A stretch of DNA of 64,000 nucleotides from Paeniglutamicibacter kerguelensis (GTDB lineage Bacteria; Actinomycetota; Actinomycetes; Actinomycetales; Micrococcaceae). Under the pieces are notes generated by a model, which ran no database searches, was not told the origin of the DNA, and saw nothing but the letters and a program-made list of their open reading frames with translations. Shown piece by piece: positions 1 to 64,000 of the stretch (its first letter is position 1; every line of letters starts with the position of its first letter). A program made the translations under genes and the position numbers. Location of the stretch: NCBI RefSeq assembly GCF_017876535.1, contig NZ_JAGIOF010000001.1, positions 3,410,001-3,474,000 on the forward strand. Direction: 5' to 3'.

Positions 1-45
1 AAGTATTTCCTGAAGCAGCTGTACATCCGCGCTGAGCTCTGTCAT
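1..45 (-). CDS. 5' end of a divergent gene, product unknown (partial)
   Basis: Reading leftwards, an ATG at 45 follows a strong ribosome binding site (AAGGAGG, four bases before the start) and opens a frame that runs off the window: MTELSADVQLLQEIL. Only 15 codons are visible, too few to assign a family. It is divergent from the LysR gene at 172 and shares with it a 126-bp intergenic region carrying an inverted repeat, so it is a plausible target of that regulator. The strong Shine-Dalgarno is the main support. Confidence 0.6.
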   Translation of the reverse strand, partial: MTELSADVQLLQEIL

Positions 46-109: not shown

Positions 110-136
110 TATGCAACACTTTGCGAGTGCTGCATA
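110..136. promoter_or_regulatory. inverted repeat, candidate LysR operator
   Basis: TATGCAACAC and GTGCTGCATA form ten-base arms with one mismatch around a seven-base spacer (TTTGCGA). The dyad lies between the divergent gene starting at 45 and the LysR gene starting at 172, the usual place for autoregulation and control of a divergent gene by a LysR-type regulator. The function is inferred from position and symmetry. The spacer resembles that of the dyad at 1155-1171. Confidence 0.55.
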
Positions 137-171: not shown

Positions 172-1107
172 ATGGCTGAAATAACCCTCAAGCAACTCGA
201 ATACTTGCTGGCGGCGGCCGAGGCCGGCAGTGTCACAGGTGCGGCCACGAAGCTGTTTCTCAGCCAATCTGCCGTCTCGACGGCACTCGCCGACCTGGAA
301 CAGTCGCTCGGCGCGCAACTGTTTGTTCGCCACCCTCGAGGAATGAGCCTCACCACGGTGGGCCGCGAGGTGGTGGCCGACAGCAGGCGGATCATTATGG
401 GCATTGAGGAAATGCATGAGTCCGCCAGAAGTAGCGTCGATTCTCTAGCAGGCAAGCTCCGCGTCGGCTGCTACTCGTCCCTGGCTCCCGTGCTGCTGCC
501 CATGGTGATCGATGAATTCCTGCGGAAGAACCCGCGGGTCGAGCTTTCGTTCATGGAAGGCGACCAGAAGACTCTCGCCGATTCTCTTGCAAACGGGGCA
601 TTGGATCTGATCATCGTCTACGACTACCAGCTGCACGAACTCAAGCAATCCGGAACATTTACCCTGACCCGGGTCTATGCGTCCAAGCCCTACGTGGTCC
701 TGCCTGTCGACCACCCATTGGCAGAACACCGCCGAGTCTCCCTGCGCGAGCTTGCCCCTGAACCGATGATCCTGTTCGACCTTGCTCCCGGCGGGGAGTA
801 CTTCCTGTCGTTCTTCCAGCTTGAGGGGCTAGAGCCGACCGTCCGCTTTCAGACAACCAGTTTCGAGATGGTTCGCGCGCTTGTCGCGCGCGGCCTCGGA
901 TACTCCATCCTGAGCCAGCGCACCGCAATCTCCATGAGCTACGAAGGGTTGCAGGTGGCCACGCGCGAACTTGCGGCGGACATCCCGCCACTGGGCATTG
1001 CCACTGCGCATCTATCCAGGGTGCGGCCGACTGCACGCGTGCGGGCGTTCATGGAACAGGTCGAAACCAGCCTCGCGCTCTGGAGTGGAATGCATGAACC
1101 TCGATGA
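172..1107 (+). CDS. LysR-family transcriptional regulator
   Basis: A 311-residue protein of normal length for the LysR family. An N-terminal winged helix-turn-helix (about residues 3-62, with the characteristic AATKLFLSQSAVSTALADLE stretch) is followed by a substrate-binding-like effector domain (about 90-300). The start has a GAAGGAAGG sequence about 14 bases upstream. It is transcribed towards, and is probably the regulator of, the flavin reductase/HpaB/DUF1028/M20/aspartase genes that follow on the same strand. It is also divergent from the partial gene at the window edge. The inducer cannot be read from sequence; by context it would be an aromatic amide or a breakdown product. Confidence 0.9.
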   Translation: MAEITLKQLEYLLAAAEAGSVTGAATKLFLSQSAVSTALADLEQSLGAQLFVRHPRGMSLTTVGREVVADSRRIIMGIEEMHESARSSVDSLAGKLRVGCYSSLAPVLLPMVIDEFLRKNPRVELSFMEGDQKTLADSLANGALDLIIVYDYQLHELKQSGTFTLTRVYASKPYVVLPVDHPLAEHRRVSLRELAPEPMILFDLAPGGEYFLSFFQLEGLEPTVRFQTTSFEMVRALVARGLGYSILSQRTAISMSYEGLQVATRELAADIPPLGIATAHLSRVRPTARVRAFMEQVETSLALWSGMHEPR

Positions 1108-1154
1108 ATTGGGTTTCGATTTTTTAGATGGATAACTAAGAAATAATCTGCTTG

Positions 1155-1171
1155 TTCAATTGCGACTTGAA
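1155..1171. promoter_or_regulatory. inverted repeat upstream of the monooxygenase operon
   Basis: TTCAA and TTGAA are perfect five-base arms around a seven-base spacer (TTGCGAC). The site lies in the 130-bp gap between the LysR gene and the flavin reductase gene. The spacer shares TTGCGA with the dyad at 110-136, so both may be sites for the same LysR regulator. A further short repeat, GTTC-TTGT-GAAC, is at 1181-1192. Assignment is tentative. Confidence 0.4.
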
Positions 1172-1237
1172 TCACAGACTGTTCTTGTGAACATTCAGAC
1201 CGGCACCATTTCCGGTCGATCCAAGGAGGTTGATTCA

Positions 1238-1822
1238 ATGTCTACGTCAGTCAAGCCAGCTGTCACCGTTGGCCTCAAGAGCAATCCAGAAGCGTTGCGG
1301 AACTCGTTCGTTGAGGCAATGGGGCGCGCCGCCACCGGCGTGACGATTGTTGGCACCGATGGCCCCAGCGGCAGGTATGCCCAGACGGTCAGCGCCATGT
1401 GCTCGGTGACAGCCGATCCAACCACCCTGCTGGTATGTGTGAACCGAAAAAGCCCGCTCAACGAGGCCATCGTCAAGCACGGCGTTTTCTCCGTCTCGTT
1501 ACTGGGACGCCAGCATGACCATGTGGCCGACACCTTTGCCGGCCGGCCTTGGCCCGGCAAGGAACGGTGGGATTTCACCTGCGGAGAATGGGCGCCGCTG
1601 CCTTCGGGCTGCCCCACGCTGGTGGACGCGCTGGCTTCATTTGACTGCATCCTACGGCAGGTCGTCGAATGCGGCACCCACTACATCTATTTCGGAAACG
1701 TCACCGCGGTAGGAGGCCAACCGGGAGAACCCTTGACCTATCACGCGCGCACCTATGGCAAACCAGAACCTGTTGAGCCGTCGGTGTTTCCCGACTACCC
1801 GGGTTCGGGCCCGGTGCGCTAA
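1238..1822 (+). CDS. flavin reductase, HpaC-like small component
   Basis: A 194-residue flavin-reductase-like protein. The start is the ATG at 1238, preceded by AAGGAGG. The longer upstream frame lacks such a site. The AATGVTIVGT and YAQTVSAMCSVTADP motifs, followed by NRKSPLNEAI, are typical of the FMN-binding split-barrel reductases that supply reduced flavin to two-component monooxygenases. It lies 48 bp upstream of an HpaB-type oxygenase, so the two form a reductase-oxygenase pair: NAD(P)H reduces FAD here, and free FADH2 passes to the oxygenase. Pairing is inferred from adjacency and from known HpaBC systems. Confidence 0.88.
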   Translation: MSTSVKPAVTVGLKSNPEALRNSFVEAMGRAATGVTIVGTDGPSGRYAQTVSAMCSVTADPTTLLVCVNRKSPLNEAIVKHGVFSVSLLGRQHDHVADTFAGRPWPGKERWDFTCGEWAPLPSGCPTLVDALASFDCILRQVVECGTHYIYFGNVTAVGGQPGEPLTYHARTYGKPEPVEPSVFPDYPGSGPVR

Positions 1823-1870
1823 GACGCCAGCATTATCCAACTAATTTTCATGCGAGAAAGGTAGAGGCAA

Positions 1871-3358
1871 ATGCTTCGTACTGGTGAAGAATACCGCGAG
1901 TCCATTCGAGACGGCCGCAAGGTCTACGTCAACGGCGAGCAGGTGGACGACGTAACCACGCACCCCATGTTCAAGCCCATCGTTGATCAGCGAGCCATGA
2001 TCTTCGACATGGCCCATCAAGAGTCGACCCAGGCGACGATGACCTACGTCGATGAAAAGAATGGGGAACTCAACGCGATCGGCAATCGCCTTCCACGGAC
2101 CCAGGAAGACTGGTCGGACAAGCGTCGCGCAGTGGACCTGACGCTTCGCGAGGCCGGCGGCGTCGTTACCCGAGTCGGCGACGAGACCATTGGTGAAATG
2201 TGGTCGCTCTTTGACGGCCAGGATGTCCTCAACGAAGTCGACCCGCGCTTTTCGGACAACATCCGGCGACACATCGAGCGCTCCATCACCGCCGACACCT
2301 TCCACATATCGGCCAACACGGATCCCAAGGGCGACAGGTCCAAGGCGCCCCAGGACCAGGATCCGGACATGCTGCTGCATGTGGTCCGCGAAACCGACAA
2401 CGGGATCGTGGTTCGCGGCGCCAAGTACGAAACCGCTGCGGCCTACGCCAACCAGGCATTCACCAAGCCAACCATCGCCAATTGGGGCAACGACAAACTC
2501 TCCAACTATGCCGTTGGGTTCGTCGCGAACCTTTCCAGCCCGGGATTGAAGTTCATCTCCCGCACGGGCTTTGCCGGCCGGGCCTCGGCCAAGGACTACC
2601 CGCTGTCCAACCGGGTGGACGAAGTCGAATCACTGGTCATCTTCGACGACGTGGAAATCCCTTGGGAGGATGTGCTCTTCTACCGCCACACGCGTGCTGC
2701 GGCGTTCATTCGCTCCACCCTGCACCGCTACAGTGCGTTCCCGTTCGTCCAGCGCACCCAGCATCTCGCCGACTTGATGATCGGGGCTGCCCTGTGGAAC
2801 GTCAAGCAGACCGGCTTGGAGAAGCAGCCAGCCGTTCAGGAGAAGCTGGCCCAGCTCGCCTGCTACCGCGAAAACATCAATGCGCATCTGACCGCATCCA
2901 TCGCCATGGCAGAGAAGAGCCCCGGCGGGCTGCTCATGCCGAATCAATCCTTGCTCTACACCGGCCGGGTAACGGCCTTGTCGCAGCTCCCCACGATGAT
3001 GCACATCGCTCGTGAACTGTGCGGCGGCCAGATCTGCATCACTCCCGATGCAGCCTCGTTCGAACACCCGGACACCAAGGACTGGCTGGACAAGTACTAC
3101 AACGTCAATGAGAACTGGATTGCCGACGATCGCCGCAAGCTCCTGGCATTCGCCCGCGACCTGCTCAACAGCGACTACGCCGGGCACCGGCTGACCTTCC
3201 AGCTCTTTGCCCAGTCGCCGCCGTTTGCCCAGCTCGGTGCCATCTACCGGAACTTCGACTTCGAAGGGCCGCTCGACCTTGTACGCAAGGCTGCCGACCT
3301 CTCCGACCGGGTCACCGGTGAAACAAACGACGCGGCCAAGCTTGCCACCCGAGTTTGA
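1871..3358 (+). CDS. HpaB-family FADH2-dependent aromatic monooxygenase (large component)
   Basis: A 495-residue protein of the 4-hydroxyphenylacetate 3-monooxygenase large-subunit family, which has an acyl-CoA dehydrogenase fold. The N-terminal HpaB_N region covers about residues 1-270 and the C-terminal HpaB region about 275-480. The segments DPDMLLHVVRETDNGIVVRG and ESLVIFDDVEIPWEDV are family hallmarks. Family members use free FADH2 and O2 to hydroxylate phenols and related rings. The substrate here is unknown; it need not be 4-hydroxyphenylacetate because no meta-cleavage genes are nearby. AAAGG and GAGG lie before the ATG. It sits between its likely reductase and a DUF1028 gene 29 bp downstream, all on one strand. 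Confidence 0.88.
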   Translation: MLRTGEEYRESIRDGRKVYVNGEQVDDVTTHPMFKPIVDQRAMIFDMAHQESTQATMTYVDEKNGELNAIGNRLPRTQEDWSDKRRAVDLTLREAGGVVTRVGDETIGEMWSLFDGQDVLNEVDPRFSDNIRRHIERSITADTFHISANTDPKGDRSKAPQDQDPDMLLHVVRETDNGIVVRGAKYETAAAYANQAFTKPTIANWGNDKLSNYAVGFVANLSSPGLKFISRTGFAGRASAKDYPLSNRVDEVESLVIFDDVEIPWEDVLFYRHTRAAAFIRSTLHRYSAFPFVQRTQHLADLMIGAALWNVKQTGLEKQPAVQEKLAQLACYRENINAHLTASIAMAEKSPGGLLMPNQSLLYTGRVTALSQLPTMMHIARELCGGQICITPDAASFEHPDTKDWLDKYYNVNENWIADDRRKLLAFARDLLNSDYAGHRLTFQLFAQSPPFAQLGAIYRNFDFEGPLDLVRKAADLSDRVTGETNDAAKLATRV

Positions 3359-3387
3359 GCAGCCAAGACAACCCCTAGGACACTGAC

Positions 3388-4065
3388 ATGACATTTTCAC
3401 TGGTTGCCCGTGATCCCCGCACCGGAGCGTTCGGCATGGTGGTCACCTCCTCCAGCCCATCGGTGGCCGCCCGGTGCGTCCATCTGCGGTCGGATGTGGG
3501 AGGCGTTGCCTCCCAGAACGTGACCGACCCTGGACTGGGCGAACGGATTCTCAACGCGCTTGAGTCCGGTTCCAACGCGCAGGTCGCGCTTGACAGCGTT
3601 GCCCGGGATGCGGAGCACATGGATTTTCGGCAGGTCGCCGTCGTTGACAAGGACGGCAACGTGGCTTCGTTCTCCGGATCGGGGACGCTTGGAACCAACC
3701 GTGTCGTTGCCCTTGATGGAGCCGTGGCTGCGGGTAATTTGCTCTCCGACCCGGGAGTTCCCGCCGCCATCATGGCTGCTTACCAAAATTCGGCGGCAAG
3801 TGCCTTCGAACGACGGCTACTGGACGGCCTGGTTGCCGGGTTGAACGCCGGGGGCGAGGAAGGCACCGTCCACTCGGCCGGTCTCGTGGTTGTGGATGGA
3901 CATTCCTGGGCCTCCACCGACCTACGCGTCGATTGGGACGATGAGGACCCGATCGGGGTCTTGGAGGATCTCTGGGAGCGTTGGGCACCCGAAAAGGAAG
4001 CCTACCGTTCCCGCGCGATCAACCCAACGGTTGCCCCGTCCTACGGGGTCCCCGGGGATCTCTGA
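3388..4065 (+). CDS. DUF1028 family protein
   Basis: A 225-residue protein matching DUF1028 over its full length: MTFSLVARDP at the N terminus, then VVTSSSPSVAARC and SQNVTDPGLGERIL. These proteins are uncharacterised but have an Ntn-hydrolase-like fold. After removal of Met1 the first residue would be Thr2, a potential N-terminal nucleophile; this is inference. DUF1028 genes frequently accompany amidohydrolases in catabolic operons. Here it lies between the HpaB oxygenase and an M20 hydrolase, consistent with a role in amide handling. AGGA lies seven bases before the start. Confidence 0.88.
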   Translation: MTFSLVARDPRTGAFGMVVTSSSPSVAARCVHLRSDVGGVASQNVTDPGLGERILNALESGSNAQVALDSVARDAEHMDFRQVAVVDKDGNVASFSGSGTLGTNRVVALDGAVAAGNLLSDPGVPAAIMAAYQNSAASAFERRLLDGLVAGLNAGGEEGTVHSAGLVVVDGHSWASTDLRVDWDDEDPIGVLEDLWERWAPEKEAYRSRAINPTVAPSYGVPGDL

Positions 4066-4165
4066 CAATCAAGCGCCAATGGGTTCCAGATCGTCGGTCT
4101 GGGACCCATTGCGTTATCAGGTTCCCGAATGCGCCTCGTGATTGAGAAGGAAGTTGGACCCGACA

Positions 4166-5320
4166 GTGCACAAGCATGTTGTACGCCGCGTTAGAGAAAT
4201 ACAGCATGAACTCGTCGAGCTATCGGAGAAGATTCATGCCAACCCCGAGCTGGGCTGGAAAGAGTTCAAGGCTGCCGAATGGACTGCGCAATTCCTGGAG
4301 CGCCACGGCTTCGAGGTGGAACGCGGATACCTTGGATTCCCCACTGCGTTGCGCGCGGTGTTTGGATCAGGACGTTTCCGAATCGGACTTTGTGCTGAAT
4401 ATGACGCACTGCCCGAATTGGGGCACGCATGCGGACACAACCTGATTACCGCAATGTCCTGCGGGACCGCCGTTGCGTTGGCCGATCTGGCAGATCAATA
4501 CGACCTGACGGTCGAGGTCTATGGCACCCCCGCCGAAGAAGGCGGCGGCGGCAAGATTGAAATGCTCAAACGAGGCGCGTTCCAGGGTTTGGACCTGGCC
4601 ATGATGGCCCACCCCGGACCCGTTGATTCCGCGGAGGCCCGACCCTTCGCGGTGGGACACCACCATATTTCCTATCGAGGGAAGTCGGCCCATGCCGCCG
4701 CCTACCCCGAACAGGGAGTGAATGCGAATGACGCGTTTGTTGTAGCCCAGGTTGCACTTGGATTGTTGCGACAGCAACTGCCTGGCAGCACTAGGGTGCA
4801 CGGCATCCAGACACGCGGAGGTCAGGCACCCAACGCCATCCCGGAACATACAGAAGGACGCTGGTATGTCCGCGCCGAAACCCTTGATGAGCTGGCACTG
4901 GCCGAGGCCCGCGTGCGCCGCTGCTTTGAGGCGGGTGCGCTGGCCACGGGATGCGACCTCGAAATGACCCCGGAGTCCGAACCATACTCCGAGTTCAGGA
5001 CCGACGCGCGGGCACTGGAAATGTATGTCCACCACGCACAAAAACTTGGGCGCCGCTTTGACGCGCCCGCGGAGCACGCAACCATGAACAGGGCCTCGAC
5101 CGACATGGGCAATGTGTCGCAACTCGTTCCGGCCATTCACCCCTACATAGGACTGAACTGCTATCCGGATTCCAACCATCAAGTGCAATTCGCCGAGCAT
5201 TGCGTCGGGGCCGCAGCCGAAAACGCAATTCATGATGGGGCCGCGGCCCTGGCTTTGACGGCATTGGACTATGTAGGTAGCCATCTCCAAAACGAAAGGA
5301 ACGAGTATGTTGGGCAATGA
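4166..5320 (+). CDS. M20-family amidohydrolase (AbgB/PM20D2-like)
   Basis: A metal-dependent M20 amidohydrolase of about 384 residues. CAEYDALPELGHACGHN holds metal-ligand and catalytic positions, and YGTPAEEGGGGKIEML carries the Glu-Glu pair. The whole resembles the AbgB / N-acyl-amino-acid hydrolase branch rather than true exopeptidases. A GTG at 4166 with GAAGGAAG upstream is preferred; a TTG at 4142 would add eight residues. Its end overlaps the start of the aspartase gene by 14 bp, indicating co-translation. The product is therefore probably aspartate released from an N-acyl conjugate. The acyl group is unknown; an aromatic acid fits the upstream monooxygenase. Alternative substrates such as aminobenzoyl-glutamate cannot be excluded. 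Confidence 0.85.
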   Translation: MHKHVVRRVREIQHELVELSEKIHANPELGWKEFKAAEWTAQFLERHGFEVERGYLGFPTALRAVFGSGRFRIGLCAEYDALPELGHACGHNLITAMSCGTAVALADLADQYDLTVEVYGTPAEEGGGGKIEMLKRGAFQGLDLAMMAHPGPVDSAEARPFAVGHHHISYRGKSAHAAAYPEQGVNANDAFVVAQVALGLLRQQLPGSTRVHGIQTRGGQAPNAIPEHTEGRWYVRAETLDELALAEARVRRCFEAGALATGCDLEMTPESEPYSEFRTDARALEMYVHHAQKLGRRFDAPAEHATMNRASTDMGNVSQLVPAIHPYIGLNCYPDSNHQVQFAEHCVGAAAENAIHDGAAALALTALDYVGSHLQNERNEYVGQ

Positions 5321-6740
5321 GCCGGCAAGATCGCTTTCCACCCGTCGGGAACATGATTCCATGGGGGAGGTCGAAGTACCGGGCTGCGCCTACTACGGGA
5401 TCAGTACCGAGAGGGCCCGCCAAAACTTCCCGATCAGTGGTCGAACCGTTGGAGATTTCCGTCATCTGGTCTGGGCTTTTGGTGCGGTCAAGGCGGCCGC
5501 CGCGCGGGCAAATGAGTCCACGGGCCTGCTCAGCGCCAAGCATTCCATGGTCATTCAAGCCGCAGCCGCCGAAGTCATGGATGGCATATACGATGACCAA
5601 TTCGTGGTTGACCGCATTCAGGGCGGCGCTGGAACCAGCACCAACATGAATGCCAACGAGGTCATTGCCAACCGGGCACTGGAACTACTGGGACATGAAA
5701 AAGGCCAGTATCAGCATCTGGATCCTATCGACCACGTCAATCGCAGCCAGAGCACCAACGACACCTATCCGACGGCCGTAAAGATTGCGCTGCGCCGCTC
5801 TCTGGATGAGCTCGTCGAGGAACACGGCAAGCTGGCGGCAGCATTCGCCACGAAATCCTTGGAATTCGCCGACATCCTCAAGATCGGACGCACTCAGTTG
5901 CAGGATGCCGTCCCGATGACCCTCGGACAAGAATTCGGCGCCTTTGCCGAAACATTGCGAGAGGACAATGACCGCATGTGTGAAATGCGGTTGCATCTGG
6001 CCGAAATCAACTTGGGCGCCACCGCAATCGGCACCGGCATCACGGCCTCGGCCGAGTACCGGGCACGCGTGGTCCCGGAGCTCGCCAAAATCACCGGGCT
6101 GCCCCTGGTTGCGGCGGTCAACCTCGTGGAAGCGACATCTGACACCGGTGTGTTTCTGTTGCTTTCCGGCATGGTCAAGCGGGCAGCGGTCAAGCTGTCC
6201 AAGGTCTGCAACGACTTGCGGTTGCTGTCGTCGGGACCCCAGTCCGGTTTCGGTGAAATATATCTTCCAGCGGTCCAAGCCGGATCCTCAATCATGCCCG
6301 GAAAGGTAAACCCAGTGATCCCGGAAATGGTGAACCAGGTGGCGTTCCGAATCGTCGGCTCCGACATGACCGTGACCATGGCAGTGGAAGCAGGGCAGCT
6401 GCAGCTCAATGCCTTCGAACCGGTGATGGCTGATGCATTGCTGGAATCCATTCAGTGGCTGACTCACGCGAGCGAGACATTGAGGGAACGTTGCGTGGTG
6501 GGAATTGAAGCAAATGAAAGCCTTCTCAAACAGCGTGTTGAGGGTTCCCTCGCCGTAATCACGGGGCTGACCCCACTGTTGGGATATGCCGTATCCGCTG
6601 AATTGGCGAAGGAAGCCTTGCACGGAAAAAAGAGTCTCTCTGAGCTGATCCTTGAACGCGGGTTGCTTAGTGAATCCGAGTTGGCGGAAGCCATCTCACC
6701 GCAGAATCTCACGGGAGCGACGCAATCGGTATCTAGCTAG
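5307..6740 (+). CDS. aspA: aspartate ammonia-lyase
   Basis: A 477-residue member of the fumarase/aspartase superfamily. It carries the signature GSSIMPGKVNPVIPE, the GGAGTSTNMNANEV and RSQSTNDTYPTA active-site regions, and GRTQLQDAVPMTLGQEF, all typical of true aspartases. It would deaminate L-aspartate to fumarate and ammonia. The start at 5307 has AAAGGA seven bases upstream, and the N-terminal STRREHDSMGEVEVP matches aspartase N termini, so the long start is right. It overlaps the M20 gene and is the last gene of the operon. In context it feeds aspartate released by the M20 enzyme into the TCA cycle. Confidence 0.9.
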   Translation: MLGNEPARSLSTRREHDSMGEVEVPGCAYYGISTERARQNFPISGRTVGDFRHLVWAFGAVKAAAARANESTGLLSAKHSMVIQAAAAEVMDGIYDDQFVVDRIQGGAGTSTNMNANEVIANRALELLGHEKGQYQHLDPIDHVNRSQSTNDTYPTAVKIALRRSLDELVEEHGKLAAAFATKSLEFADILKIGRTQLQDAVPMTLGQEFGAFAETLREDNDRMCEMRLHLAEINLGATAIGTGITASAEYRARVVPELAKITGLPLVAAVNLVEATSDTGVFLLLSGMVKRAAVKLSKVCNDLRLLSSGPQSGFGEIYLPAVQAGSSIMPGKVNPVIPEMVNQVAFRIVGSDMTVTMAVEAGQLQLNAFEPVMADALLESIQWLTHASETLRERCVVGIEANESLLKQRVEGSLAVITGLTPLLGYAVSAELAKEALHGKKSLSELILERGLLSESELAEAISPQNLTGATQSVSS

Positions 6741-7744: not shown

Positions 7745-7771
7745 CGGCAGACCCGGCGACGGGTCCGTCAG
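7741..7771. terminator. hairpin terminator between convergent genes
   Basis: CTGACGG/CCGTCAG outer arms and ACCCG/CGGGT inner arms enclose a GCGA tetraloop, with a three-base bulge (CAG), followed by GTTTCT. The hairpin spans the stop codons of the convergent genes ending at 7744 and 7768, so it can serve both. Confidence 0.7.
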
Positions 7772-8655
7772 GTTTCTAGGCGCGGGTTCCGCCGGGCGAA
7801 GTCACGGGCGAGATCTTCCATGCGGGCGAACTCGACGCCGTCATGGGACTGGATGTGGTCAAAGAGCCGCTCGAGCATGAGCAGGTTCTGCGGCTTGCCC
7901 GAGACATCGGGGTGGATGGTGATCGGGAAGACTGCATAGTCCATTTCGCGGTAGACCCAGTCGAACTGGTCCCGCCAGAGCTGTTCGACGACGTTCGGGG
8001 ACACGAACCCGTGGCTGTTGGGGCTGGACTTGATGAACATCATCGGCGGCAGGTCGTCGAGGTACCACGAAGCGGGGATCTCGATCAGGTCGGTTTCCCC
8101 GCCGCGCACCAGCGGCTTCATCCATTCCTTGGCGGAGTCGGCCTCGTAGTCGATATTGGTCCAGGAGTCCCCGACCCGCACGTAGTAGGGGGTGAAGTCG
8201 TCGTGCATCAGGGAGTGGTCGTAGAGGAACCCGCGTTCAAGCAGGATCTCGTTGGTCACCGGGGAGAACTCCCACCACGGCGCCACGTAGCCCACCGGCT
8301 TGCGCCCGGAACGCTTCTCGATGAGGTCGGTGCAGTAATCGAGGACCTCGGTTTCCTGCGAGCGGGTCATGGCGATCGGATTCTCGTGGCTGTAGCCGTG
8401 CACCCCGATTTCGTGTCCGGCAGCCACGACCGCGTCGAACTGCGCCGGGAACGTCTCCACCGAGTGTCCCGGCCAGAACCAGGTCACGGGTATCTGGCGG
8501 CGCTGGGCGAGCTGGAGCAGCCGCGGCACGCCGACCTCGCCGGCGAACATGCCGCGGGAGATGTCGCCCGGGGAACCTTCCCCGCCGTAGGAGCCCAGCC
8601 AGCCGCCGACCGCGTCGACGTGGATGCCGACCGAGACGTAGATTTTCTTGGACAT
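7768..8655 (-). CDS. polysaccharide deacetylase-like (NodB fold) hydrolase, possible cyclic-imide hydrolase
   Basis: A 295-residue NodB-fold protein. [13 protein letters not shown] carries the first Asp, and [15 protein letters not shown] carries the H-x3-H metal ligands. The sequence is of the Helicobacter PgdA type, a branch that also contains bacterial cyclic-imide hydrolases, so peptidoglycan deacetylation is not the only option. No signal peptide or membrane segment is seen, which favours a cytoplasmic hydrolase. The ATG at 8655 lies five bases after GGAG; the ATG one codon earlier is too close to it. It is downstream of, and probably cotranscribed with, an asparaginase-like gene (29-bp gap). 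Confidence 0.82.
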
Positions 8656-8684
8656 CATGTCTCCTCTGTGAGAGGTGGGTGTTT

Positions 8685-9653
8685 TTAGCAGTAGGTCTTG
8701 AATGCTGCCGGGAATTCTTCCGTCCCGGTGCCGCAGGAGAGCAGGACGGCGGCGAGAATGCGCGCCTGGAACGGGTTGAGGTCGCCCGCGGGAATGGCGC
8801 CTGCCGCAACCAGGTCGATGCCTCCGCCGTTGCCGTAGGTCGGGACGATGGGTCCCCACGGCGCCCGGGTGCTGAGCACGACGATGCAACCGTTCTCCGT
8901 CGCCCGTTTCACGGCGTCGGCGAATCCGGGCCCCGCGTTGCCGACCCCGGTGCCGGCCAGCACGACGACGCGGCTCCCGAGCCGCACCGCGTAATCCATG
9001 AGCTCCGGCGTCGCCCCGGGATACGCCGTGATGATTTCCGCGCGGACGCCATCGAACGCCACCTTCGGCATCGGCATCGGCGGGTAACGGCGGGGCGCGG
9101 CAACAACCACGAGCCGGTCGCCCGCCATGTGGGCCACCTCGATGCCGCCCCCGAAGGCGCTGCCCGCGGTGGTATGCACCTTGCGAGCGCCGCGGGCTGA
9201 ACGGACCGTCCCGTTGAAGGAGATCAGCGCCCCGGACTCTCGCAAATGCTCGTTGGCCGCCGCTCGCACCGCCTCCGCGACGTTGCGCGGACCGTCGGCG
9301 TCGGGGCTGTCCGCAGTGCGCTGGGCGCCGGTGAGCACCACGGGCTTGGGCGAGGCGTGCACGAGGTCAAGCAGGAATGCCGTCTCCTCGAGGGTGTCGG
9401 TTCCGTGGGTGACCACCACGCCGTCGATGCCCGGATCGGCGAGCGCCTCCCCGACCTCCTCGGCAATCCGGCGCAGGTCGGCCAGACCGAGGAGGTAGCT
9501 GCCGGTGGTAAGTACGTCGCGTGCGCTGACAGTGACATCGCCATACTGCGTCTGGACCAGCGAGGAGGATGCGTCGGTGGCAACGGATCCGCCGGGCCCA
9601 TGTCCACGCGAGGCGATGGTGCCTCCAGTGCCCAACAGCTGGATGTGGGCCAC
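8685..9653 (-). CDS. L-asparaginase family amidohydrolase
   Basis: A 322-residue asparaginase-family protein. [10 protein letters not shown] near the N terminus carries the first catalytic Thr (about residue 12), and [14 protein letters not shown] carries the second Thr and the Asp of the catalytic set. The GTG at 9653 is chosen because GGAGG lies seven bases upstream and the asparaginase fold begins immediately. No signal peptide is visible, so the enzyme is probably cytoplasmic. It hydrolyses asparagine or another omega-amide. Because the next gene may be a cyclic-imide hydrolase, it could act on the half-amide product; this is inference. Confidence 0.88.
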
Positions 9654-10076
9654 TGTGCGCCTCCATTTCGAGCGGGGCCGAGCCCGCAGAGGGCGGGCCA
9701 TCCATGAGGAAGAGAGCTGCAACTGCTTGTCCAATATGACTCACATGGAAGCAGAAAGAAAGGTCTGCGAACCACGTACTTTCCCGGCGGCGGTGCGACC
9801 ACGAATATCCGGTGTCCGGGTCGGGGCCAGCGGCCCGCCCCGATCCCCGAAACCCTCATCCATCTGCCTCTCTTACGATGGCGAAGTTGGCGCCGGATGG
9901 ATGCCGGCGGGTCGATTCAAGCCACACGCTGTCGGGGTCGGACCGCTTCGGCCCGCCTGCCTCGTGGCGTCCGCGGAGCCGAACGCCCGGCAATGGAACC
10001 CAGTTCCTTGACATGAGCCCGAGTCTCACGAAAGACTAACGTGACACAGGTCATATCAACCCACGGAGCCGCACCA
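9654..10076. other. divergent intergenic region
   Basis: About 420 bp between the divergent asparaginase and acyl-CoA synthetase genes. It holds a recognisable promoter for the rightward gene (10008-10037). No other gene or RNA is supported; frames in it are shadows with poor codon use. Confidence 0.5.
10008..10037 (+). promoter_or_regulatory. sigma-70 type promoter for the acyl-CoA synthetase gene
   Basis: TTGACA at 10008-10013 and AAGACT at 10032-10037 are separated by 18 bp. Transcription would start near 10044. That excludes a start at the GTG at 10041 and supports the GTG at 10077, which has its own CGGAG site. Confidence 0.5.
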
Positions 10077-59416: not shown

Positions 59417-60772
59417 CTAGTGCTGGTTGACGAGTTCGGACTTCTCCAGGCGGGCTTTGCCAAGCAGCGGGTGGGTTTCCGGAACCCCGCCGAATCGAAC
59501 CACCAGGAACACGACGGCGGCATAAATGGCCAGGTACACGCCAGGCGAGACTGCCGAGCCGGTGGTCTCGACCAGCCAGGTGCCGACCAACGGGGCCGTG
59601 CCGCCAAGCAACGCGTAGCCGACGTTGTAGCTCACGGCGGCGGAGGTGAAACGGGTCTTGGTCTGGAAGATTTCCACAAAGATCGTGGCACTGCCCGCTC
59701 CGAAGACCAGCAGCGGCAGGATGTAGACCAGCTGGCCGAGCAAGGCGACCCAGACGTTTCCGCTGGTGATCAGCAGGAACGCTGGAATGACCAGAATCGC
59801 CAGGCCTGCCGAGCCCACCAGCAGCATCGGCCGGCGTCCCACCTTGTCGCTGATCAGCCCGGCGAACGGAGAGATTGTTGCCATGAGCGCCATGATTACC
59901 GCATTGAGTCCCAGTGACTGGCCGCGGCTGAGGCCGCCAACCGTCTGCAGGAAGGAGACGAAATAGCCGGCCAGGAAGTAGAAGGCCAATGCCGTCAGAC
60001 CGCAGACAAGCGCCACCTGGACCATGCGTCTCCCGTTGGTGCGGAAGGCCTCACGGATCGGGCTGTACTCCTTGCTGTCTGCCGACTGGAGCACCTTTTG
60101 GAATTCGGGCGATTCCTCGGTCCGTCGGCGGATCCAGAACCCGAACACCGACAGCGGCAATGCCAGCAGGAACGGAATGCGCCAGGCCCACTGTTCATAA
60201 CCCTCGGGGCCAAAGACCATATTCAGTCCCAGGATCAGCCCGCCGGCAAAGACCCCGGGAAGCGCCGTGGCGGCAATGGTGACGCCCAGCCAGAGTCCGC
60301 GCCGCTCCAGCGGCGCATGCTCCAGCACGAAGGCCGGCGCCCCGACGGATTCCCCGCCTGCGGAGAAACCCTGAACGAGGCGGAAGAACACCAGCAGGAC
60401 CGGTGCGGCGAACCCGATGGCCGCGTAGGAGGGCATGAGCCCGATTCCAACCGTCGCCAGGCCGATGCCCATCAGCGTGATGAACAGGACCGGCCTGCGG
60501 CCGATTCGGTCGCCCAATGCCCCGAAGAACAGTCCGCCGAGCGGGCGAATCAGGAAGGCCACACCGAAGGTGGCGAAGGTGGCGAGCATCGCGGTGAATG
60601 TCGACCCGGCGGGGAAGAAGTGCTTTGCCAGGATCAATGCACTCAGGCCGTAGAGGCTGAAGTCGTAGAACTCGATGAACTGTCCGACGGCGCCGCCGGC
60701 CAAGACCCGCTTCTGCATTGTTCCGGCCGGTTTGGGCCGGGAAGTGTCGTGCAGAGAGGTTGCTTGATCCAC
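59417..60772 (-). CDS. MFS transporter, metabolite:H+ symporter family (copy 1)
   Basis: A transporter of about 451 residues with twelve helices. GGAVGQFIEFYDFSLYG at the N terminus and FGALGDRIGRRPVLF (MFS loop 2-3) are characteristic of the MHS group, which takes up organic acids. It is nearly identical to the copy at 62630-63982 over most of its length. A GTG at 60772 with GGAG six bases upstream is preferred over the TTG at 60784. Substrate unknown; the neighbouring amidase and amidohydrolase suggest an amide compound or an organic acid. Confidence 0.88.
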   Translation of the reverse strand: MDQATSLHDTSRPKPAGTMQKRVLAGGAVGQFIEFYDFSLYGLSALILAKHFFPAGSTFTAMLATFATFGVAFLIRPLGGLFFGALGDRIGRRPVLFITLMGIGLATVGIGLMPSYAAIGFAAPVLLVFFRLVQGFSAGGESVGAPAFVLEHAPLERRGLWLGVTIAATALPGVFAGGLILGLNMVFGPEGYEQWAWRIPFLLALPLSVFGFWIRRRTEESPEFQKVLQSADSKEYSPIREAFRTNGRRMVQVALVCGLTALAFYFLAGYFVSFLQTVGGLSRGQSLGLNAVIMALMATISPFAGLISDKVGRRPMLLVGSAGLAILVIPAFLLITSGNVWVALLGQLVYILPLLVFGAGSATIFVEIFQTKTRFTSAAVSYNVGYALLGGTAPLVGTWLVETTGSAVSPGVYLAIYAAVVFLVVRFGGVPETHPLLGKARLEKSELVNQH

Positions 60773-61154
60773 TGTATTCTCCAAAAATAGTTCAGTTTCT
60801 TACTGTGATGACAGTCACGAGTTTGTAGTGGAATTCATATCACGTCCAATCAATGCTTCTTTGTACTAGCATTGAAAAAATCTATACGTTTCGCCGGGAG
60901 AGACGGTCTTGGTTGTTACCGTCTTCCGTCTCGGCTGCTTTTGTGCCGAGACTGGATTCGTCTGCACGGCGGGGCAATGGGCTCATTGAAAGACACCCAG
61001 CAGATCAAATTATTGGCCAGCCAGTTCCAGCAGCCGCAATATCTCCTTCAGTTGCGGCGCCAGCCTCTTAACGCCCGTGCACTGAACACGCGCAAACGCC
61101 GCGCCCGGGGTGGCATTGCCTCCACCTCGGGCACGGCGTTCGCGGATCATCGAA
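60773..61154. other. intergenic region
   Basis: About 380 bp between the amidase end and the copy 1 transporter. It holds the amidase terminator (61095-61140) and the promoter for copy 1. No gene is supported; frames on the plus strand are shadows. Confidence 0.5.
61095..61140 (-). terminator. strong hairpin past the amidase gene
   Basis: AACGCC and GCCCGGGGTGG pair with CCACCTCGGGC and GGCGTT (arms 61095-61113 and 61122-61140) with one mismatch in the inner stem and a two-base internal loop around an eight-base loop. It ends the transporter-amidase transcript. Confidence 0.75.
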
Positions 61155-62629: not shown

Positions 62630-63982
62630 TCACTGGTTTACAAGATCGGGTTCGTCCGCTGCGCGCTTTCCTAGCAGCGGGTGGGTTTCCGGAACCCCGC
62701 CGAAGCGGACCACCAGGAAGACGATGACCGCGTAGATACCCAGGTAGATACCCGGCGAGATCGACGAGCCCGTGGTCTCGACCAGCCAGGTGCCGACCAG
62801 CGGTGCGGTGCCGCCCAGCAATGCGTAGCCGACGTTGTAGCTCACGGCGGCGGAGGTGAAGCGGGTCTTGGTCTGGAAGATCTCGACGAAGATCGTGGCA
62901 CTGCCGGCACTGTAGACCAGCAGCGGCAGGACATAGATCAGCTGGCCAAGCAATGCCACCCAGACGTTGCCGCTGGTGATCAGCAGGAACGCGGGAATGA
63001 CCAGGACCACCACACCGGCCGAGCCCACCAGAAGCATCGGCCGTCGTCCGACCTTGTCGCTGATCATCCCAGCGAACGGCGTGGCCAACGCCACGACCGA
63101 CATGACCACCGCATTGAGTCCCAGCGATTGGGCCCGGGTCAGGCCGCCGGCCGTCTGCAGGAAGGAGACGAAGTAGCCGGCCAGGAAGTAGAAGGACAGT
63201 GCCGTCAGGCCACACACCAACGCCACCTGGACCATGCGCCTCCCATTGGTGCGGAAGGCCTCGCGGATCGGGCTGTATTCCTTGGCCTCGGCCGACTGGA
63301 GCACCTTCTGGAACTCCGGCGATTCCTCGGTCCGGCTGCGGATCCAGAACCCGAACACCGACAGCGGCAATGCCAGCAGGAACGGGATGCGCCAGGCCCA
63401 CTGCTCGTACCCGTCCGGGCCGAACACCAGGTTCAGACCCAGGATCAGCCCGCCGGCGAAGACGCCGGGCAGCGCCGTTGCCGCAATGGTGATGCATAGC
63501 CAGAGTCCGCGCCGCTCCACGGGTGCATGTTCCAGGACGAAGGCCGGTGCCCCGACCGATTCGCCGCCCGCGGAGAACCCCTGGATGAGCCGGAAGAACA
63601 CCAGCAGGACCGGTGCGGCGAACCCGATGGCAGCGTAGGACGGCATGAGCCCGATGCCGACCGTTGCCAGGCCGATGCCCATCAGGGTGATGAACAGAAC
63701 CGGCCTGCGGCCGATGCGGTCGCCCAGCGCACCGAAGAACAGCCCGCCGAGCGGGCGGATCAGGAACGCCACGCCGAAGGTGGCGAAGGTGGCCAGCATC
63801 GCGGTGAACGTCGATCCGGAGGGGAAGAAGTGCGTCGCCAGGATCAGGGCGCTGAGCCCATACAGGCTGAAATCGTAGAACTCGATGAACTGTCCGACGG
63901 CGCCGCCTGCCAGGACCCGCTTTTGCATCGATCCGGACCGCGCGGTCCGGGTATCGGCACGCGGTGAGGGTGATTGACCCAC
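62630..63982 (-). CDS. MFS transporter, metabolite:H+ symporter family (copy 2)
   Basis: A transporter of about 450 residues, complete within the window by a narrow margin. GTG at 63982 with GGAGG five bases upstream; a TTG at 63994 is possible. It is almost identical to copy 1: in the first 235 aligned residues I count about eleven substitutions. The ends differ more. It is the first gene visible in the unit and precedes the amidase. It is likely to be a recent duplicate, or to be kept similar by gene conversion. Confidence 0.88.
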   Translation of the reverse strand: MGQSPSPRADTRTARSGSMQKRVLAGGAVGQFIEFYDFSLYGLSALILATHFFPSGSTFTAMLATFATFGVAFLIRPLGGLFFGALGDRIGRRPVLFITLMGIGLATVGIGLMPSYAAIGFAAPVLLVFFRLIQGFSAGGESVGAPAFVLEHAPVERRGLWLCITIAATALPGVFAGGLILGLNLVFGPDGYEQWAWRIPFLLALPLSVFGFWIRSRTEESPEFQKVLQSAEAKEYSPIREAFRTNGRRMVQVALVCGLTALSFYFLAGYFVSFLQTAGGLTRAQSLGLNAVVMSVVALATPFAGMISDKVGRRPMLLVGSAGVVVLVIPAFLLITSGNVWVALLGQLIYVLPLLVYSAGSATIFVEIFQTKTRFTSAAVSYNVGYALLGGTAPLVGTWLVETTGSSISPGIYLGIYAVIVFLVVRFGGVPETHPLLGKRAADEPDLVNQ

Positions 63983-64000
63983 TAAAGCCTCCAAGGAATC

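Follow-up and report, generated by a model that had tools for sequence, protein, structure and literature searches.

Which compound is broken down by the gene cluster at positions 172–6740 of a 64,000-nucleotide stretch of the Paeniglutamicibacter kerguelensis genome (contig NZ_JAGIOF010000001.1, positions 3,410,001–3,474,000; the whole stretch is hereafter called the window)? Six genes, encoding a LysR regulator, a flavin reductase, an HpaB-type oxygenase, a DUF1028 protein, an M20 hydrolase and an aspartase, were found there with the place, strand and families that an earlier, sequence-only reading had given them. We propose that this cluster breaks imidazole-4-acetate, the product of histamine oxidation, down to fumarate, with a two-component HpaB-type monooxygenase replacing the monooxygenase HinF, a reading to which we assign a probability of roughly 75%. 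Most likely, the cluster functions in the manner of the Pseudomonas hin pathway with a different oxygenase, that is, as a variant of a known pathway.

According to sections of a review, P. putida U converts histamine through imidazole-4-acetate and aspartate to fumarate, its hin2 genes being hinF-L-H-G, and hinFLHG of P. aeruginosa is switched on by HinK, a LysR regulator for which imidazole-4-acetate is the signal (PMC8231116). Excerpts of a second paper describe HinF as a flavin adenine dinucleotide-dependent monooxygenase (EC 1.14.13.5), HinL as an enamine deaminase, HinH as an amidase, HinG as an amidase (EC 3.5.1.8) and HinI as an aspartase (PMC6467879); Table 3 of that paper gives AWA45227–AWA45230 as accessions of the deposited HinH, HinG, HinF and HinL proteins. 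The author of the earlier reading knew no described pathway with exactly its gene set; the pathway has been described as hin in P. putida U, with another oxygenase. From the gene content, synteny, residue changes, tree and kinship with HinK that were observed, we infer every reaction of the following scenario and the order of its hydrolytic steps. The reductase would supply reduced flavin, and the HpaB-type oxygenase would hydroxylate the imidazole ring, a task that in Pseudomonas falls to HinF, an unrelated single-component enzyme. The DUF1028 protein would open the imidazolone lactam to give N-formimino-aspartate, whose imine would be hydrolysed to N-formyl-aspartate, elsewhere by RidA/HinL and here by another RidA, by an ArgE-type M20 hydrolase encoded divergently from the cluster, or spontaneously. 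The M20 enzyme of the cluster would free aspartate from N-formyl-aspartate, the aspartase would convert aspartate to fumarate and ammonia, and the HinK-type LysR would sense the substrate.

Support for the proposal comes from loci in which HpaB stands in the place of HinF. Two Pseudomonas loci (L037 and L027) have the order reductase (divergent), HpaB-RidA-DUF1028-M20, LysR (divergent), aldehyde dehydrogenase and aminotransferase; locus L138, of a sister strain, has the order HinF-RidA-DUF1028-M20, LysR (divergent) and aldehyde dehydrogenase. The genes common to both arrangements are 76–87% identical, the LysR proteins of L037 and L027 share 87–88% identity with HinK, and the strains of these two loci gave no HinF match at 1e-20. 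In the actinobacterial locus L171, a HinF cluster and an HpaB cluster lie side by side, and the M20 protein of the former, in the order HinF-RidA-DUF1028-M20, is 74% identical to that of the window, compared with 58% for the HpaB-linked M20 protein of the same strain. A tree of 103 DUF1028 rows was labelled by the nearest HinF or HpaB gene on the same strand within 5 kb, by which rule L140 and L143, whose HinF lies on the opposite strand, counted as 'none' and L177 and L178 as HpaB. The groups in this tree were broadly taxonomic, its starred branches force at least seven changes of the HinF label, and L037 and L027 clustered with L138 and L137 with a support of 100/99, the bootstrap being not fully settled. 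The swap and the mixed parts are as expected if HinF and HpaB yield the same or nearly the same product.

The active site of the oxygenase also bears on the substrate. In Thermus thermophilus HpaB, Arg100, Tyr104 and His142 bind and activate the phenol, and Ser197 and Thr198 bind the carboxylate tail, as described in part of PMC10537072. At these five sites, the HpaB clade of the window carries Arg (89/89), Glu (89/89), Ser (89/89), Thr (88/89) and Ile (86/89), counted over 89 clade rows, in which a few genomes are represented by duplicate loci. The comparison left out the Pseudomonas rows L105, L106 and L108, and L107, read on the wrong strand, was disregarded. A paralog in the window's own genome retains Arg, Tyr, His, Ser and Thr, and three Pseudomonas relatives retain Arg and His, with Tyr or Phe. 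The window protein scored 210.9 on the NCBIfam 4-hydroxyphenylacetate hydroxylase equivalog, far under the cut-off of 480.2. A substrate-facing glutamate in this clade would suit imidazole; a simple phenol or tyramine as substrate was rejected on the basis of the active-site residues.

The other products of the cluster were assigned by family models and by comparison with solved structures. For the LysR protein, HinK was clearly the best solved match by sequence (36% identity). The DUF1028 protein shares 43% identity with a HinF-linked Pseudomonas copy; its Thr2 was invariant in 17/17 sequences, and its fold matches HslV, residue 2 aligning with residue 1 in rows numbered from Thr1. We thus propose that DUF1028 is an N-terminal-threonine amidohydrolase whose Thr2 would be exposed as the nucleophile after removal of Met; no paper in the open library searched names DUF1028. 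The M20 protein passed the cut-off of TIGR01891 'amidohydrolase' (204.5 vs 153.75), and its nearest solved relatives were HmrA (2e-62) and Xaa-Arg dipeptidase (6e-62), not the ILR1 type, since ILR1-like 2, an auxin-conjugate hydrolase homologue, reached only 1.5e-9 among solved structures. The lyase exceeded the cut-off of the PRK12273 aspartase subfamily model (683.1 bits; cut-off 510), stayed under that of the TIGR00839 equivalog (607.5; cut-off 681.2), scored at most 443.8 on FumC models and had an aspartase as its best match among solved structures; a second aspartase-like gene, 57% identical, lies elsewhere in the genome. For the flavin reductase, RutF was the top model, with 122.6 below a cut-off of 254.75.

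Relatives of the HpaB protein are scarce near home, the clade being present in 1/297 genomes of the order (1e-90) and 5/396 of the phylum (1e-70), with the window's own genome counted in both. Among species-representative genomes, at least 443 stretches encode an HpaB relative (tblastn, 1e-3), some of which may fall outside the clade, and the best 80 of these, 73–85% identical, belong to Actinomycetota, Pseudomonadota and two Thermomicrobiales metagenome-assembled genomes. In a set of 85 loci made up of these 80, the window's locus and four further loci, some of them cut by contig ends, a DUF1028 gene and a RidA-family gene each stood on the same strand within 4 kb of HpaB at 75/85 loci, a LysR gene within 6 kb at 70/85, a flavin reductase gene within 4 kb at 54/85, an M20 gene within 5 kb at 45/85 (21 of the Pseudomonas HinG type, 19 of the window type and five of the window type plus ArgE type) and an aspartase gene within 6 kb at 7/85. 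The shared core is HpaB-RidA-DUF1028, which together with the M20 gene corresponds in order to hinF-L-H-G, and not the five-gene set of the sequence-only reading; aspartase is an occasional neighbour. Two Arthrobacter loci, L014 and L015, repeat the window's gene order and likewise have no intact RidA, and L016 repeats it with RidA shortened, but this is not the widespread form. Within 10 kb of HpaB, aminotransferase genes occurred at 20/85 and aldehyde dehydrogenase genes at 19/85 loci; these two labels, like those of Rieske-type, trimethylamine dehydrogenase (TMADH)-like, binding-protein and permease genes below, were read by eye and not from a family search. Transporters vary among the relatives' loci (by eye). 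In L021 (Rhodococcus jostii), the aspartase behind the M20 gene appears as two open reading frames (ORFs), the listed match covering only residues 7–349, and may be broken. In L045 and L069, the HpaB cluster is adjoined or closely followed by an acetylpolyamine-amidohydrolase-like gene (by eye), which could hint at N-acetylated amine precursors.

Several observations weigh against the imidazole-acetate proposal. In the window's genome (G000), no HinF match was found at 1e-20; the operon holds no RidA gene, only about 30 bp separating HpaB and DUF1028, and the best RidA of the genome is 37% identical; and genes for a hin-type aminotransferase or aldehyde dehydrogenase are absent next to the cluster. 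Since the tests for HinF and HinL came out negative, the cluster does not simply belong to hinFLHG. Among solved structures, phenylethylamine oxidase is the closest to the genome's sole copper amine oxidase; the organism may start from histamine or import imidazole acetate. The window M20 protein matched the M20 protein in the HinG slot of Pseudomonas over only 76 residues (E 0.05), the divergent M20 protein being 28% identical; the HinG slot of the window is filled by another subfamily than in Pseudomonas, and this same subfamily follows HinF in L171 and L176. Furthermore, the Pseudomonas operon is called hin here by its order, family and HinK neighbour, not by the sequences of HinF, HinL, HinH and HinG. 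Among 149 sampled genomes of Pseudomonas, the genus of L037, DUF1028 was found in 105/149 and the HpaB clade in 1/149 (the seed), seven others matching at just 27–32%. Twelve of 20 Pseudomonas DUF1028 loci encoded flavoprotein monooxygenases belonging to a single family (Pfam typing covered two of them), and 10 of those 12 showed the one-strand order monooxygenase-RidA-DUF1028-M20, which is the order of hinF-L-H-G. The other 8/20 loci lack HinF, four having an ABC-aldolase context, three standing beside unrelated genes and one (L137) beside M20 and LysR genes, and DUF1028 was also found in 3/14 control genomes; DUF1028 is therefore not confined to the hin pathway. Loci L131, L132, L135 and L146 show a second setting of DUF1028 in Pseudomonas, with ABC transporter genes, a class II aldolase-like gene (by eye), DUF1028 and M20, without RidA or HinF. 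An HpaB-type imidazole-acetate monooxygenase was not described in the largely open-access literature searched; homarine, betaine and Rut-like readings were also considered, and that literature offered nothing relevant to them. As for Gram-positives, sections of the review state that hin genes were absent from those sequenced by then (PMC8231116), and a passage of the 2019 paper reports hin homologues in Brevibacterium (PMC6467879).

A further point against the proposal is that 13/85 HpaB genomes also encode a protein related to HinF at 59% identity or more (9/45 at 1e-20, a search that also gave weaker flavoproteins of at most 44% identity, and 4/40 at 1e-120); HpaB may therefore have a related but different substrate there. 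HpaB could then act on a related imidazole, such as N-methylimidazole acetate or a ring isomer, followed by the same RidA-DUF1028-M20 steps, with HinF and HpaB as alternatives for different substrates. Rhizobium loci L177 and L178 would agree with this, a divergent HinF gene lying near HpaB-reductase-RidA-DUF1028 with a single RidA-DUF1028 set and one called ORF between, as would L171 with its two clusters side by side and genes within 10 kb for Rieske-type oxygenases (15/85 loci) and TMADH-like flavoproteins (11/85), families that include N-demethylases. However, the remaining 72/85 HpaB genomes have no such HinF relative, and in L037 and L027 HpaB takes the place of HinF in an otherwise unchanged operon with an adjoining regulator 87–88% identical to HinK, which leaves a related imidazole a live but unlikely alternative. 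Successive action of HinF and HpaB is likewise unlikely, given the 72/85 HpaB genomes without HinF.

In the sequence-only reading, M20 acts on N-acyl-aspartates, with plant auxin and salicylate conjugates as examples, to free aspartate, and the probably aromatic half so released is oxidised by HpaB/HpaC. HpaB, HpaC, an amidohydrolase-type M20 and aspartase are all present, and aspartate as the product to be burned fits the dedicated aspartase, the second copy of the enzyme in the genome, as well as the aspartate formed in the hin pathway according to sections of PMC8231116. The conjugates as its source are not supported: the phenol-binding Tyr and His are gone in the whole clade, and the usual partners of its HpaB, RidA and DUF1028, are left without explanation. 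DUF1028 and a window-type M20 also stand behind the unrelated oxygenase HinF, which argues against an aromatic half released by M20. Moreover, typing of 10 proteins around the operon revealed no ring-cleavage dioxygenase, aspartase lies near just 7/85 loci, and the ILR1-like M20 is a remote relative; breakdown of such conjugates is thus highly improbable. A broader scavenging cluster for N-heterocycles or N-acyl amino acids, drawing on a D-aminoacylase (by eye), the ArgE-type M20, a binding protein, the cluster's M20 and an asparaginase, with HpaB hydroxylating another nitrogen heterocycle, would suit the abundance of amide hydrolases both within the cluster and nearby and the varied transporters of its relatives (by eye). 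It is improbable, though less so than the conjugates, since imidazole acetate is the substrate indicated by the regulator of HinK type and by the operon swap.

If imidazole acetate is the substrate, the missing RidA raises the matter of the imine step. The window's locus, L013, L014 and L015 have HpaB and DUF1028 with no RidA between them, and in L016 RidA is internally shortened; all four RidA-less HpaB-DUF1028 loci and L016 carry an ArgE-type M20 gene divergent from HpaB, the proteins being 72–78% identical. This is no more than suggestive of a bypass of RidA by the ArgE-type M20, because the five loci are related and represent few events, a HinF cluster elsewhere in the genomes of L013 and L016 supplies an intact RidA, and Streptomyces loci L038, L044 and L052 have RidA and yet an M20 of the ArgE-type group further off. 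A fuller history is tentative and rather doubtful: the HpaB clade might have become an imidazole hydroxylase, with Glu and Ser in place of Tyr and His, and been repeatedly swapped with HinF across phyla, and the actinobacterial branch of the window might have lost the RidA step, its ArgE-type M20 cleaving N-formimino-aspartate directly to aspartate and formamide, so that the pathway would end in two alternative ways, as histidine breakdown is known to do.

Compared with known systems, the cluster resembles hin of P. putida U and P. aeruginosa in its HinK-type LysR, a DUF1028 protein where hin has HinH, an M20 in the presumed place of HinG, an aspartase corresponding to HinI and the conversion of aspartate to fumarate. 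It differs in the two-component HpaB-type oxygenase in place of HinF, the lack of a cognate RidA (HinL), an M20 of another subfamily, the extra divergent ArgE-type M20 and transporter genes, and the lack of HinC/HinD alongside. With the 4-hydroxyphenylacetate 3-hydroxylase HpaB/HpaC it shares the protein family, the flavin arginine and a separate flavin reductase, but Tyr104, His142, Ser197 and Thr198 (T. thermophilus numbers) are changed, and no catechol-cleaving partner was found among the 10 proteins typed. In the Hut pathway of histidine breakdown, the imidazolone is opened to a formimino amino acid, which is followed by a deiminase/deformylase branch or a direct formiminase branch, and the product is glutamate; the ring opening to a formimino amino acid is alike, whereas the enzyme families and the glutamate product differ. 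The Rut pathway of uracil breakdown has RidA and amidohydrolase partners with an oxygenase of another family acting on another ring, and is approached by the window in its reductase, which scores best on RutF, below the cut-off.

Table 1. Features of the cluster and its upstream flank in window coordinates
Feature	Position	Strand	Remarks
Divergent ArgE/DapE-type M20 hydrolase, 5' end	1..45	-	Extends beyond the window (L003 13886-15046)
Inverted repeat TATGCAACACT-N5-AGTGCTGCATA, candidate LysR operator	110..136	no strand	Between the divergent M20 and LysR genes
LysR regulator, HinK type	172..1107	+	
NAD(P)H:flavin reductase, HpaC/RutF-like	1238..1822	+	ORF open from 1160
HpaB-type oxygenase (HpaB_N+HpaB), proposed imidazole-acetate monooxygenase	1871..3358	+	Arg101 kept; Glu105 and Ser147 replace phenol-binding Tyr and His
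DUF1028, HinH counterpart, proposed N-terminal nucleophile (Ntn) amidohydrolase	3388..4065	+	Proposed nucleophile Thr2
Strong RNA hairpin, no T run	4072..4115	+	Between DUF1028 and M20
M20 amidohydrolase, HmrA-like, proposed N-formyl-aspartate amidohydrolase	4142..5320	+	HinG slot
Aspartase, HinI counterpart	5307..6740	+	Second copy in genome

Within the cluster, ATG 1238, with AAGGAGG ahead of it, is the likeliest start of the reductase ORF (1160–1822), and the overlap of the M20 and aspartase genes, already pointed out in the sequence-only reading, amounts to 14 nt. The hairpin has a predicted energy of -33 kcal/mol (z -4.2; 0/200 shuffles that low) without a T run and may split or attenuate the operon; because it separates DUF1028 from M20, the five enzymes need not all share one transcript. 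The inverted repeat is near-perfect and expected 0.02 times per window by shuffles, the pattern being derived from the site itself. A similar palindrome was sought in front of the cluster's LysR and reductase ORFs in L014, L015 and L016, and none was found, so the operator assignment is weak. Beyond the divergent M20 gene, which starts at position 45, lie genes for a polar amino acid binding protein and an ABC permease-ATPase fusion (both named by eye) and, further outside the window, D-aminoacylase, FAH-family and RraA-family look-alikes (by eye); the divergent neighbours in L014, L015 and L016 are the same. Being mostly outside the window, this divergent set was beyond the view of the sequence-only reading. 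On the minus strand right behind the operon (7768–9734) are a polysaccharide-deacetylase/PuuE-like gene and the asparaginase gene. The transporter-like minus-strand ORFs at 59417–60784 and 62630–63994 have nearly identical starts, a possible recent duplication.

Under this proposal, a large HpaB clade, represented in the window by a protein that scores only as a distant relative of 4-hydroxyphenylacetate hydroxylase, receives a function that can be tested, and DUF1028 receives a likely role and catalytic residue. If it is true, the known range of imidazole-acetate breakdown would take in Actinobacteria, Alphaproteobacteria, Burkholderiaceae and further groups represented in the 72/85 HpaB genomes without HinF, in which a genome search based on HinF would miss the pathway.

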